A DNA stretch of 64,000 nt from Luteimonas rhizosphaerae (lineage in GTDB: Bacteria; Pseudomonadota; Gammaproteobacteria; Xanthomonadales; Xanthomonadaceae), in NCBI RefSeq assembly GCF_002849595.1, contig NZ_NRQR01000020.1, forward strand, positions 1 to 64,000. The letters are read 5' to 3'. Within the stretch, counting starts at the first letter, position 1. Every line of letters starts with the position of its first letter. This document shows positions 30,812 through 36,544 of the stretch, in pieces. Position numbers and translations under genes: made by a program. The notes beneath the pieces were generated by a model. It searched no databases and was not told the DNA's origin. It was given only the letters and a program-made list of their open reading frames with translations.

Positions 30812-32794
30812 TTACCAGATACGGACGCGGTCTTCCGGTGCGATGTACTGCGCGTCGCTCTCGGACACGTCGAACGCGTCGTACCAGGCGTCGACGTTGC
30901 GCAGCGGCGCGAACGCGCGGATCTGGCCCGGCGAGTGGGTACCGTTGACCAGCTGCTGGCGCAGCGCGTCGTCGCGCCACAACGTGCGCCACACCTGCGC
31001 CCAGCCCATGAACAGGCGCTGCTCGCCGCTGAAGCCGTCGATCTCCGGCGCCGGCTTGCCGTCGAGCGAACGACGATAGGCCTCGAGCGCGATCGTGATG
31101 CCGCCGAGGTCACCGATGTTCTCGCCCATCGCGACCTTGCCGTTGATGTGCATGCCCGGCAGCTGCGGGAACTCGAACGCCTCGTACTGCGCGCCGAGCT
31201 TCGCGGCCTGGGCCTCGAACTTGCGCGCATCCTCGGCAGTCCACCAGTCGCGCAGCACGCCTTCGCCGTCGGACTTGCGGCCCTGGTCGTCGAAGCCGTG
31301 GATGATCTCGTGGCCGATGACGCCGCCGATGGCGCCGTAGTTCACCGCCGGATCCGCGTCCGGATCGAAGAACGGCGGCTGCAGGATCGCGGCCGGAAAC
31401 ACGATCTCGTTCTTGACCGAGTTGTAATAGGCGTTGACGGTCTGCGGGGTCATGCCCCACTCGCCCTTGTCGACTTCCTTGCCCAGACGGTTGCGGCGGT
31501 AATCCCACTCGAACGCCATCGACCGCTCGGCATTGCCGAACACGTCGCCACGCGCGACCTGCAGGTCGCTGTAGTCACGCCAGGTGTCGGGATGCCCGAT
31601 CTTGAGGCCGAAGCCCTCGAGCTTGCGGCGCGCTTCGGCCTTGGTCTCGGCGCCCATCCAGTCGAGCTGGTCCAGGCGCACGCCCATCGCCACCTTCACG
31701 TTGGCGACCAGCTCGTCCATCTTGGCCTTGGCATCGGCCGGGAAATACAGCTGCACGTAGTCGCGGCCGATGGCCTCGCCCATGGTGCTTTCGGCGAATG
31801 CGACGCCGCGCTTCCAGCGTTCCTTCTGCTCGGGCTGGCCCGACAGGAACTTGGAGCGGAACTCGAACTGCGCGTCCGAGAACGCCTTCGACAGCAGCGG
31901 TGCGGCGCCGTCGACGGTGCTGAACGCCTGCCAGGCCTGCAGCGTGGCGACATCGGTGTCGGCGAAGATCGCGGCGATCTTGGGGACCGCGGTGTCCTGG
32001 CGGACGACGGCGCGCGGCGCCTGGCCGACGCCCGCGGCCTCGAAGAACGCGTCCCAGGCGAAGCCGGGCGCGGTGGTCGACCGGGTTATAGGTCTTGTCG
32101 CGGTCGCGGCTTTCGGCGCGGGTCCAGTGCGCTTCGGCGATGCGGGTCTCCATCGCGAGGATCGCTTCGGCGTTCTGCTGCGGATTCTCCCAGCCCGCGA
32201 GTTCCAGCAGCTGCGCGATGTAGGCCTGGTAACGCTCGCGCTGCGGGGCGAAATTCTCGCGCAGGTACATCTCGCGATCGCCGAGGCCGAGGCCCGACTG
32301 GCTCATGTACAGCGTGTAGCGGTCCGGATCGCGCTGGTCGTCGGACACGCCGAGGCCGAAGAAGCTGCGGCCGAAGTCGGCCTGCTGCGCACCCATCAGC
32401 GCGGCGAGCGCCTCCTTGTCGTCCGCGGCGCGGATCGCCGCCAGCTTCGGCGCGATCGGCCGGGCGCCGAGCGCCTCGATGGCCTGCTCGTCCATGAAGC
32501 CGGCGTACAGGGCCGCGACCTTGGCCTGGTCGCCCAGGTGCCGTTGACGTAGTCGAAGAAGTTGTCGCCCGGCTTGACCGAGGTGTCCATGCCGGCGGTG
32601 TCGATGCCCCAGGTGCCGAGGCGCTTGGCGGCGACGACGTCGCCCGCGTCCCCGCCGGTGGTGGTGTCACCGGTCTGGAACAGCGACTGGATCGTGCAGG
32701 ACGCATCCAGGCAGTCGTGGTTGTCGTGGGCGGCCAGTGGGGTCGCGAGCGTCAGGGCCACGGCGGTCGCCGCGGACAACAGGGTCTTCTTCAA
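30812..32794 (-). pseudogene. M13 family (neprilysin-like) metallopeptidase, two internal disruptions
   Basis: Secreted M13 zinc endopeptidase homologue. The N-terminus (signal peptide, MKKTLLSAATAVALTL) is in one frame up to NFFDYVNGTW. Conserved sequence resumes in a second frame at about 32540 (DQAKVAALYAGFMDEQ), with some 45 family residues missing between, so a deletion shifted the frame. A second break at about 32085, after DKTYNP, moves to a third frame (TTAPGFAWDAFF) with a few residues missing. The remainder holds VNAYYNS, HEIIHGFDDQG (HExxH) and GENIGDLGG (second Glu ligand). The catalytic domain is thus intact but not translatable as one chain. Confidence 0.87.
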
Positions 32795-32978
32795 ATCGGT
32801 TTCTCCAGAGGGAACAGGCCGTGGCTGGCGTCGTTACCGGCGCAACCATCAGATCCTCAGGATACCGATCGGGGCGTGACGGGAGGGGTGCCGGAAGTCC
32901 GGCATGGCGCCACGGGCCACCGTGGGTCGGGATGCGACGCTGCGCGATCGTACCCGCCGCCCCTCGCGACGGAGCGCC

Positions 32979-34829
32979 TCAGGGCAAGGCGGCCCGGCGG
33001 GCGCGGCTCGCCGCGTCGGCGACGTGGAGGACATCCTCGAGCAACCGCGGCGGCAGCGGACGCGGCGTGGCGCACGGCGCTTCCACCGGCGGCGGCGTGG
33101 TGTCGTACACGCACAACCGGTTCCGGCCCGAGCGCTTGGCCCGGTACATCGCCTTGTCGGCGTGCGACAGCAGGCGGGTGAAATCGTGGCCCGAACGCAG
33201 GGTGTCGGTGATGCCGAAGCTCGCGGTCAGCTGCATGTCGTAGCCGCAGCCCGTGGCGTCGATCGCGGCGAAGCCGGTCATCGCCGCGGCCGCGGTCTGG
33301 CGCGCGGCGCTGGCGTCGCAGCCCGGAAACAGCAGCGCGAATTCCTCGCCGCCCAGCCGGCCGAACGCATCCTCGGGGCCGCGCAACGGCACGCAGGCCT
33401 TGGTCACCTGGCACAGCGCCCAGTCGCCCGCCGCATGCCCGAAGCGATCGTTGATCTGCTTGAAGTGATCGAGATCGAAGGTGACCAGCGCGGCGACCCG
33501 CCCCTCCCGCGCGCACTGGGCCAGGGCCCGCGTCGCCTGTTCGCTGAAATGGTGGCGATTGCTGATGCGGGTCAACGGGTCGGTCTGGGCCATCCGCTGC
33601 ATGCGCATCTGCAGGCGCTTGGTGCGGAACGCCCAGTAGCCGGTGGTGGCGAGCAGGAACACCAGCAGCGCCGCGGCGACGAGCCAGTTCTGCGCCCGCT
33701 GTTCGGTGACGCGCTTCTGCAGTTCCAGCAGCTGGTTCCTCTGGCGCAACAGCTCGATCTGCTGCGCCTGTTGCGACGACTGGTGGCGGACGACCTGGTA
33801 GGCCATCTCGCGCGACTTCATGTCTTCGGTGTAGGCGCGCTGCGCCTCGGCGTAGGCGCGATAGGTCCGCAGTGCCTCGACCGCGTCGCCGCGGCGCTCG
33901 GCCAGCTCGTACAGCACCCGGTGCGCGGTGACCATGGCCTCGGAACTGCCGGCGCCGCCCAGGTCGATCGCGCGCTGGGCATGCCGCTGCGCGGGCGCAT
34001 GCTCGCCCAGGGTCATGCGGAAATCCGCCAGCAAGGCCTGGTAGTGCGCGATCAGGAACGGGTAGCCGATCGCGGTCACGTCCGCCAGGCTGGTCTGCAG
34101 CAGCGTCGCCGCATCGCGAGTGCGCCCCTGCCGGTCCCACTCGCGCGCGAGGTGCGCGCGGACGAAGCCGGTGAAGATCGGCTCGCCGGCGGTCACGCAC
34201 CGGTCGATCGCCTGCTGACCCTGCGCATCGCCCGCGGTCAGCGACAGGCCGACATGCGATTCCATGATCACACCGCCGGCGGCGCAGTGGTTCCGTGGGT
34301 CGGGCGCATTGCGGGCGACGTCCTCGGCGTAATGCATGCCGAGGCGGTATTCGCCGACCTGGTTGTAGACCACGGCGGCGACCATGAGCCCGCGATGCAG
34401 CACCGCGCGATCCTCGACGCGCTGGCGCAGCGCGAGCATCCGGTCGACCATGACCAGCGCCTCCTCGAAGCGCCGGAGAATCGCGTAGCTGTTGGCCAGC
34501 ATCGAGGCGGCGACGAAACGTGTCTCGACGTCACCGTCGCCGTCGACCAGGGTGCGCAACGTCGCGATTGCCGTTTCGGTCTCGCCCTTGGTGATGGCGC
34601 GATGCGCGTGCAGCAGTTGCCAGCGGGTGCGCTGCGCCGGATCCGCGTCGGCGATCCGACCGTCCAGGACCTGCAGCAGGCGGTCCATCTGCGCCGGATC
34701 GGCCGTGCGGATGCGGTTGCCCTCGTTGAGCAGGCTGTCGAGCGAGCGCTCGTCCGCGCCTGCGGGCGGCAATGCCGCCAGCAGGCCGAGACAGAGAGCG
34801 CCGACCAGCGCGCCACGAAGGAGTTTCAT
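32979..34829 (-). CDS. TPR-repeat diguanylate cyclase (GGDEF)
   Basis: A 616-aa membrane-anchored diguanylate cyclase. Signal sequence at residues 1-27, then a periplasmic tetratricopeptide-like helical region (about 30-380), a coiled stretch rich in Gln, a single transmembrane helix near residue 430, and a C-terminal GGDEF domain. The active-site motif is RLGGEEF, i.e. a functional GGEEF variant; DLDHFKQINDRFGHAAGD is the metal/nucleotide region. No RxxD inhibitory site is obvious five residues before GGEEF. Start at ATG 34829. Sits just downstream of the borosin-like locus, same strand, and could be co-transcribed. Confidence 0.92.
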   Translation of the reverse strand: MKLLRGALVGALCLGLLAALPPAGADERSLDSLLNEGNRIRTADPAQMDRLLQVLDGRIADADPAQRTRWQLLHAHRAITKGETETAIATLRTLVDGDGDVETRFVAASMLANSYAILRRFEEALVMVDRMLALRQRVEDRAVLHRGLMVAAVVYNQVGEYRLGMHYAEDVARNAPDPRNHCAAGGVIMESHVGLSLTAGDAQGQQAIDRCVTAGEPIFTGFVRAHLAREWDRQGRTRDAATLLQTSLADVTAIGYPFLIAHYQALLADFRMTLGEHAPAQRHAQRAIDLGGAGSSEAMVTAHRVLYELAERRGDAVEALRTYRAYAEAQRAYTEDMKSREMAYQVVRHQSSQQAQQIELLRQRNQLLELQKRVTEQRAQNWLVAAALLVFLLATTGYWAFRTKRLQMRMQRMAQTDPLTRISNRHHFSEQATRALAQCAREGRVAALVTFDLDHFKQINDRFGHAAGDWALCQVTKACVPLRGPEDAFGRLGGEEFALLFPGCDASAARQTAAAAMTGFAAIDATGCGYDMQLTASFGITDTLRSGHDFTRLLSHADKAMYRAKRSGRNRLCVYDTTPPPVEAPCATPRPLPPRLLEDVLHVADAASRARRAALP

Positions 34830-34915
34830 GATCCGGTCCCGCCCGCGGTACCCGTCAGTCGCGCTGGCGTTCCGGCGCATCGTCGCCGGGCGGGCGATCG
34901 TCGCGGCCGTCATCC

Positions 34916-35119
34916 TCATCCGGCGTCCGCTCGGGCGTGTCGTCCGCATGCCGGGCGTCCCCGCAGCAGCCGGGCCAGCGCTGCCGTATCGCGTGCCAGC
35001 AGCGCCTGCCGCTGCGCCGTGTCGATCCCGAGGCCCGCGACGGCGGCCTCGAAGTCGGCACCGGCCGGCGGCGCGGCACTGCGCCCCATTGCCTCGAGAA
35101 ACTCGATGGCTGTCGTCAT
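34916..35119 (-). CDS. Putative split-borosin precursor peptide
   Basis: A 67-residue peptide whose start codon overlaps the stop of the TP-methylase gene (ATGA). Residues 1-54 are a compact helical, acidic-to-neutral domain (MTTAIEFLEAMGRSAA..., ALARLLRG) that resembles the small helical recognition domain found in discrete bacterial borosin precursors. The last 13 residues (ACGRHARADAG) are Arg/Ala-rich. In the third frame after Arg54 the DNA encodes a very acidic tail (DDTPERTPDEDDGRDD...) to a stop at 34855, which looks more protein-like; a frameshift near codon 54 is possible. Precursor identity is inferred from the operon and shape, not from a known core sequence. Confidence 0.65.
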   Translation of the reverse strand: MTTAIEFLEAMGRSAAPPAGADFEAAVAGLGIDTAQRQALLARDTAALARLLRGRPACGRHARADAG

Positions 35120-35952
35120 TGCGTTCTCCCCTTGGTGATCGACCCGTGTTCCGCCACACCGGCCGCGTCGCGCTCCAGTGCGGCGAGCCTGTCCAGCATT
35201 CCCTTGTCCAACGTCATCGCGCGAGCCGGCGGCACCACCAGTGTGGTCTGCATCGACATCACCGCATCCACCAGCGCCGCCATCGCCATCCCCTCGATGC
35301 GCGGCCCTTCGACCGGCAGCGTAGCAGCTTCATAGAGCGTCACGGCATGCCCCTCCGGATAATCTTCCGCCAGCCGCTCCAGCAGCAGACGGCGGTGCGC
35401 CACCCCCGTCGAAGAACGCCGAACCGAGCGGTCGCCGGCCACGCCGACCTGCCACAGGAGAAGGTAGGCCGAGGTGTCGACGACGCGGCGGTAGAACATG
35501 AACTGGCTGGCCTCGTAATGCTGGCAGCCCACGCTGCCTGGATCGATGCCCAGGTCCGCGTACAGGCAGTCGGCGGCGGAGATTGCCGGCTCCATGTGGG
35601 CCTCGAAGCCCTCGTCCCGGGCCTGGGCGAGCGCCCGGTGCGGCACCTCGGCGAACACGCCCGGGTGTCCGTAGAACGCGCCGCAGACGGTACGCCCGGC
35701 GCGGACTTCGACGAGCATCGCCTCGATCATTTCGCGGTAGGTCGCGTGGCGCGATTTCCCGTCCGCGTAGTAGGGCTGGAGGCTGCGCACATCCGGATGC
35801 ATCTGCTGCACCCACAGCTCGACCAGCGGATCCGACGCCGCGACGAAGACCACGTCGGCCTGCTCGATGCCGCTGCGCGCACGCGGCGCGAGATGCGCGC
35901 CGAGCAGCATGCCCAGTCCGACGCAGGTCAGACGTCCTGTTCCCCCTTGCAT
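35116..35952 (-). CDS. Borosin-type peptide backbone N-methyltransferase (TP-methylase fold)
   Basis: A 278-aa tetrapyrrole-methylase-fold SAM enzyme. It does not look like a corrin enzyme but like the alpha-N-methyltransferases of borosin RiPPs, which methylate backbone amides of a peptide. Diagnostic stretches are the SAM loop VGLGMLLGAH (11-20), the catalytic-region YYADGKSRHATY (61-72, giving Tyr/Arg/Tyr candidates), FYGHPGVF (93-100) and PAISAADCLYADLGIDP (122-138). GCQHYEAS (142-149) and WQVGVAGD (167-174) follow. The GHPGVF and ISAxDCLxADLxIDP blocks match fungal OphMA-type domains. The enzyme is not fused to its substrate; it overlaps a small peptide gene by ATGA and follows a GNAT gene by 31 bases. 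Start at MQGGTG chosen over an upstream Met because of that spacing. Confidence 0.88.
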   Translation of the reverse strand: MQGGTGRLTCVGLGMLLGAHLAPRARSGIEQADVVFVAASDPLVELWVQQMHPDVRSLQPYYADGKSRHATYREMIEAMLVEVRAGRTVCGAFYGHPGVFAEVPHRALAQARDEGFEAHMEPAISAADCLYADLGIDPGSVGCQHYEASQFMFYRRVVDTSAYLLLWQVGVAGDRSVRRSSTGVAHRRLLLERLAEDYPEGHAVTLYEAATLPVEGPRIEGMAMAALVDAVMSMQTTLVVPPARAMTLDKGMLDRLAALERDAAGVAEHGSITKGRTQ

Positions 35953-35983
35953 GGTCCCATCCCCCGCCCCGATCCGCCGGAAT

Positions 35984-36544
35984 CTAGCCTGCGCCGGGCC
36001 GGGACGCAAAAGCGGGCGGCATCTCGCCCCGGGCGAGCCACGCAGCGCGCGTCATCTGCCAGTGCAGCAGACCGTCGCGGGGAGCGTCGGGTTCGAACCC
36101 GAGCGCACGCATCAGCCCGCGGACCGCGACGTTGTCGGGCGTGTGCCGCGTCCAGACCCGATCGAGCGCCGGCGATGCGAACAGCCGGTCGAGCAGACCG
36201 GCCGTGGTTTCGCGCGCGACCCCGCGGGCGTGCGATGCGGGCTGCAGCAGCAGGCCGTACTCGGCGGTGCGGGGCGCGGGAGACAGCACCACCGCCATCA
36301 GGCCGCAGGCGTGCCCGTCGCTGCGCCGGTCGATCGTCCAGTAGCCCACGCCTGGCGCCACCTTCGACGTGGCGCGGAGGACGGCGTCGAACGCCGCCTG
36401 CGCCGCCGATGCCGACAGCGGCGGTGCGATCAGCCGCATCACGGCGGGGTCGGTGTAGAGCGCGCAGTAGCGCGCGTTGTCCGCGGCTGCCAGCGGCCGC
36501 ATGTGGTAGCGCGTCGTCTCGAAGGTGGCGGGAAACAGGCTCAT
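35984..36544 (-). CDS. GNAT family N-acetyltransferase
   Basis: A 186-aa acetyltransferase of the RimJ/RimL-like GNAT type: N-terminal FETTRYHMRPLAAADNARY, a central beta strand ending CGLMAVV, LQPASHARGVARET as the acetyl-CoA pyrophosphate loop (Q/RxxGxG/A variant), and TRHTPDNVAVRGLMRALGF near the C-terminus. Usual substrates are protein N-termini or small amines. It is the first gene of the putative operon with the borosin-type methyltransferase and peptide, so it might acetylate the peptide or provide self-resistance (inference). Confidence 0.88.
   Translation of the reverse strand: MSLFPATFETTRYHMRPLAAADNARYCALYTDPAVMRLIAPPLSASAAQAAFDAVLRATSKVAPGVGYWTIDRRSDGHACGLMAVVLSPAPRTAEYGLLLQPASHARGVARETTAGLLDRLFASPALDRVWTRHTPDNVAVRGLMRALGFEPDAPRDGLLHWQMTRAAWLARGEMPPAFASRPGAG

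Follow-up and report, generated by a model that had tools for sequence, protein, structure and literature searches.

A probable split borosin module tied to a diguanylate cyclase in Luteimonas rhizosphaerae, with a precursor lacking core and frame as assembled

Locus and gene order

The locus described here is very probably a SonM/SonA-type split borosin module (type IV) that is tied to a diguanylate cyclase, and its precursor, as assembled, is without core and frame. It lies in a window of 64,000 nucleotides (the whole stretch of DNA that was analysed) from Luteimonas rhizosphaerae, the genome assembly of which totals 3.64 Mb in 34 contigs. The features of the locus, in window coordinates, are:

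35984..36544, minus strand: GNAT acetyltransferase (Acetyltransf_3; Pfam 2e-20)
35116..35952, minus strand: borosin-type alpha-N-methyltransferase of the SonM family, 278 aa, intact (TP_methylase 1e-20; SonM 5e-68)
34916..35119, minus strand: precursor gene, frame-0 ORF of 67 aa (family HMM; predicted binding domain at residues 1 to ~54, then ~13 out-of-frame residues)
34855..34947, minus strand: acidic precursor tail, readable in the +1 frame only (D/E 0.43 in +1)
32979..34829, minus strand: TPR-GGDEF protein, 616 aa (GGDEF 4e-37, GGEEF motif; N-terminal part weakly TPR-like; a membrane segment seen by eye)
30812..32809, minus strand: M13 peptidase gene, broken (comparison with homologues from Luteimonas and Pseudoxanthomonas)

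The GNAT and methylase genes are separated by 31 bases, the methylase stop and the peptide start overlap as ATGA, and the TPR-GGDEF gene begins 25 bases beyond the tail stop at 34855. An earlier sequence-only reading had reported the GNAT gene, the methylase, the 67-aa ORF, the 31-base gap and the ATGA overlap, all of which are borne out, and had overlooked the conserved partner, the TPR-GGDEF gene (34829-32979), which belongs to the cluster. A promoter and terminator scan returned no promoter-like sites and 3 terminator-like sites (vs 1.1 expected), none of which was used.

The methylase

A PDB search with the methylase returned 25 sequences at E<=0.01, all of them borosin enzymes, with SonM ranked first (E 5e-68) and followed by dbOphM, OphMA and Mro. 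In the alignment from this search, Y62, R68, Y72 and Y94 of the window methylase correspond to SonM Y58, R67, Y71 and Y93, respectively, which PMC8429565 gives as residues probed by mutation. Their equivalents are identical in 81 of 81 aligned methylases (the window and the best 80 of 261 named-genome loci). The enzyme is thus a borosin-type alpha-N-methyltransferase with the substrate-contacting residues, encoded separately from, and adjacent to, its precursor. Its nearest named-genome relatives are from Luteimonas (77% and 76% identity).

The three sequence blocks quoted in the sequence-only reading, YGHPGVF and GCQHYEAS among them, were all found in the methylase. The split borosin class proposed there, a methylase with a separate precursor, is a prediction on which the PDB matches, the precursor profile and the contact residues agree.

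The precursor family

The window peptide matches the family HMM at E 2e-19 over model positions 1-58, and a profile made from 16 precursors (window first) found SonA chains as its best PDB matches, with E 0.0011 across the binding domain, which identifies an N-terminal borosin binding domain. The structure model of the 67-aa peptide consists of four helices, its end being disordered (pLDDT 71.6 on average, below 50 for residues 56-67). SonA chains account for 21 of the 26 Foldseek matches of this model at E<=10; all are weak (none better than E 0.88) and therefore serve as supporting evidence only.

Related loci were found at 261 places in named genomes, and the best 80 were kept. A precursor ORF lies next to the methylase in 80 of these 80, 75 at E<=1e-5, a count that is partly by construction, since the loci that were scored had also served to seed the HMM and to iterate it; the count describes the family and is not a blind test of the HMM. 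At these 80 loci the peptide gene is therefore not missing beside the orthologues, an absence that had been put forward as grounds for abandoning the class. Five Luteimonas precursors match the HMM only at E 0.006-0.044.

The typical precursor runs from the binding domain through a short hydrophobic segment that often includes Cys to a D/E/P-rich tail. Core and acidic tail are usual, not universal, among the best 80 of 261 named-genome loci; cores are weak in L086, L091 and L109, and L098 and L100 have no acidic tail. A search of 52 genomes of the window's genus gave 43 methylase places, including 22 split-type places besides that of the window, and all 22 (61-76% identity) have, by eye, a precursor with in-frame core and acidic tail.

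Two further arrangements were seen among the loci. Some Luteimonas precursors (L057, L058, L065, L066, L067, L118-L121, L123-L127) have a shortened or diverged binding domain and keep core and acidic tail, the opposite of the window copy. At L044, L056, L088, L090, L101 and L107, one methylase is accompanied by two or three precursor genes, some copies of which are without the usual tail.

The precursor in this assembly

The window precursor, as assembled, appears from its sequence to have lost its core stretch and broken its frame, and the family membership of the locus stands. Read in +1, the final 30 residues before 34855 are 43% D/E, against a median of 37% (range 3 to 50%) for the final 30 in-frame residues of the other distinct precursors and at most 16.7% in 280 out-of-frame reads of precursor tails (repeats of the same genome included). 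Between the binding domain and the tail, the best 8-residue hydrophobicity means in the three frames are 0.34, -1.68 and 0.75, and none of the three contains a hydrophobic run comparable to the cores of the relatives; the median for those cores is 2.06, with a few intact relatives also low owing to the method. Because the tail is acidic in +1 only and there is no core-like run in any frame, the part encoding the core is taken to be missing and the frame shifted. The C-terminal core for methylation, present in most relatives, is accordingly lacking in the window copy. A genome search (E up to 10) found no second precursor elsewhere.

The claim of core loss rests on the reading of precursor sequences, the three-frame check and the tail-acidity test. 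A core-motif expression performed poorly, above all with a shortened binding domain, and caught 66 of 111 distinct precursors, while the 8-residue hydrophobicity measure is a poor core finder that did not separate the window from its relatives.

The 67-aa helical peptide of the sequence-only reading is present as an ORF and models as four helices, but it is the front of a longer gene, and its last ~13 residues are out of frame. The missing hydrophobic core, treated there as an open question about the substrate, is explained by a frameshifting loss in the window copy rather than by a new kind of substrate.

Mutation, artefact and other readings

Four further frame-breaking losses, in three genes, lie on the same contig (C15) as the window. 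The M13 peptidase gene next door has two (~41 and ~8 residues, relative to relatives' proteins), an arginine/agmatine-type antiporter has one of 10-14 residues (L144 13284-14550, contig C15 197284-198550, plus strand), and hisC has one of ~41 residues (L145 5570-6528, contig C15 209570-210528, minus strand). In the whole genome, matches of hisC grade come solely from the two fragments of this gene, with four others at 57-85 bits, so an assembly artefact is likely for hisC. A first screen found 2 of 43 genes with homologues to be broken, and a second flagged 3 of 60, of which one was M13 once more and another was weak. In the same test, 0 of 29 genes of a relative (G220) were flagged; the reverse test flagged 3 of 50, one from an ORF antisense to M13, and the control is thus not clean. 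A flagged frameshift at C15 5930-7851 was excluded from the count as weak (48% identity in one piece, pieces overlapping).

Since three more genes on the contig are broken, among them the sole hisC-grade gene of the genome, the precursor loss is no less likely to have arisen in assembly than by mutation, and we lean towards an artefact. A real, recent mutation, by which the module would be decaying in this strain with the methylase an orphan due to follow, is possible but the less favoured origin. The +1 tail is still open, so a break would be recent; the adjacent M13 peptidase gene carries two breaks, as it might under relaxed selection; and tail-less precursor copies occur beside intact ones elsewhere (L007, L028). 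Against this, the methylase and the TPR-GGDEF protein are both full length, and similar losses at a distance of over 160 kb, in hisC and the antiporter, look like a property of the assembly. Whichever the origin, the broken precursor is a warning that a small RiPP substrate known from one assembly may be artefactual and needs comparing with relatives first.

It is very unlikely that the short peptide is functional as it stands, a core-less binding domain acting on the methylase or some other partner as an inhibitor or modulator. The window peptide retains the binding domain, and the SonA binding domain by itself inhibits SonM with a Ki of 3.9 uM (PMC8429565). However, every one of the 22 other split-type loci of the genus has an in-frame core and acidic tail (by eye), the genome search yielded no second precursor that a short peptide could tune, and the acidic tail preserved in +1 would serve nothing. 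A programmed ribosomal frameshift yielding one product of binding domain and +1 acidic tail is more improbable still: that tail is open and acid-rich, but frameshifting would still yield no hydrophobic core like the relatives', and the relatives read use a single frame.

A corrin, siroheme or YabN-like identity for the methylase is hardly credible and was rejected. In its favour are the Pfam match, which is to the broad TP_methylase family only (1e-20), and a YabN match far below cut-off (38 vs 525 bits). The one other NCBIfam match, precorrin-3B methylase, is also far below (14 vs 391), leaving no curated tetrapyrrole methylase model above cut-off. Against it, the PDB matches at E<=0.01 are exclusively borosin enzymes, the contact residues are invariant in the aligned methylases and a precursor is linked to the gene. 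Grouping with cobalamin or siroheme enzymes, the outcome that was to have overturned the borosin class, is contradicted by these PDB matches.

The TPR-GGDEF partner and the GNAT gene

The near-universal companion gene of the relatives encodes a TPR-GGDEF protein and is a conserved part of the cluster. In the window protein, the GGDEF domain is matched at E 4e-37 and the TPR match is weak (16.3 bits vs a cut-off of 27.5). A TPR-GGDEF homologue lies downstream of the methylase, on the same strand and ending within 3.4 kb, in 79 of the best 80 of 261 loci, and at the 80th the contig stops 376 bases past the methylase frame. On the upstream side, 2 of these 80 named-genome loci have a homologue within that distance, either strand counted. 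By the distance rule, the methylase has a GNAT homologue beside it in at least 50 of the same 80 (31 upstream, 19 downstream), a lower bound because the rule missed nearby homologues in some loci; clustering gives 55. In that clustering of neighbours (best 80 of 261 loci), which took ORFs of at least 100 aa and so put most precursors out of reach, the widely shared families are TPR-GGDEF (75), methylase (70) and GNAT (55), with the next family at 13. The M13 peptidase was considered as part of the module and rejected, being near the methylase in a few relatives and not among the widely shared families; its damage is treated as separate.

By title, the loci (best 80 of 261) come from genera that we take to belong to the Lysobacteraceae and Rhodanobacteraceae, and from Rheinheimera, Arsukibacterium, Aliiglaciecola and Shewanella.

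Fused TPR-GGDEF-methylase proteins in Luteimonas

At twenty of the 43 methylase places of the genus, identity is lower (43-51%) and the match sits inside an open frame longer than 800 aa. Three such frames were read and two scanned, and both of the scanned frames combine TPR, GGDEF and methylase in a single chain. The separate-gene and fused forms therefore represent two gene arrangements that join the same three functions. A SonA-like peptide is encoded upstream in 3 of 10 fused-type loci (one, compared with SonA, gave E 1e-7), no precursor was found within 1.5 kb at the remaining 7 of 10, and none was found downstream in the 7 of 7 examined. Frames of this kind, ~850 aa long and with the methylase-like part last, lie in Luteimonas at L131-L137 and L167-L176.

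Proposed mechanism

Homology, active-site residues and gene order are the observed basis of the mechanism proposed here. In relatives whose precursor is intact, its helical binding domain would dock on the methylase, by analogy with SonM-SonA, and the hydrophobic core, just before the acidic tail, would be N-methylated, as in the same pair. The product or the precursor would then most likely act on the neighbouring TPR-GGDEF protein, and the outcome would be a peptide-controlled cyclic-di-GMP switch; for these last two steps, we infer from the linkage and the fusion. Gene neighbours need not act together, and the suggested signalling link has these two sequence observations behind it. Acetylation of the product by the GNAT enzyme would be a guess. 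As assembled, the window precursor could bind the methylase but offers no core, so the module as written could bind and not make product.

Tentatively, and with doubt outweighing confidence, the N-methylated borosin peptide of this clade may be a dedicated signal to the TPR-GGDEF protein, such that a RiPP would control cyclic-di-GMP in Lysobacteraceae, Rhodanobacteraceae and several Alteromonadales, and the fused Luteimonas protein would then be that switch in a single chain. The TPR-GGDEF linkage (79 of 80; best 80 of 261) and the fusion give a concrete, testable role in cyclic-di-GMP signalling. To our knowledge, the role of most bacterial borosins is open. Imani, in 2022, reportedly put the number of putative split borosin pathways at more than 1600.

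Comparison with known systems

The biochemical demonstration of type IV split borosins, from Shewanella and Streptomyces, dates from 2021 (PMC8429565), and a review terms bacterial split borosins widespread (PMC11285071); judged by these two sources, the system is not the little-described one that the sequence-only reading had supposed. The module is like SonM/SonA of Shewanella oneidensis (PMC8429565; PDB 7LTC and others) in that a small precursor, beginning with a helical binding domain, is encoded apart from the methylase, and in having the same active-site residues. In comparison with SonM/SonA, most of the relatives carry a hydrophobic core, often with Cys in it, ahead of a long acidic tail, and the window copy is core-less. 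A further possible difference is the TPR-GGDEF linkage, near universal in the 80 loci examined (best 80 of 261).

The near-universal linkage in this clade had no description in the literature searched, a search that key borosin papers lay outside, and no priority is claimed for it. A GGDEF domain is an item in a published scheme of borosin types (Figure 1 legend, PMC11395268), so the GGDEF association is not wholly new; the GGDEF domain is shared with those architectures. The fungal enzymes OphMA, dbOphMA and MroMA have a homologous methylase domain (E 3e-48 to 9e-45), and their substrate is fused to the enzyme whereas that of the window is separate. The window adds a member to the known split borosin kind.
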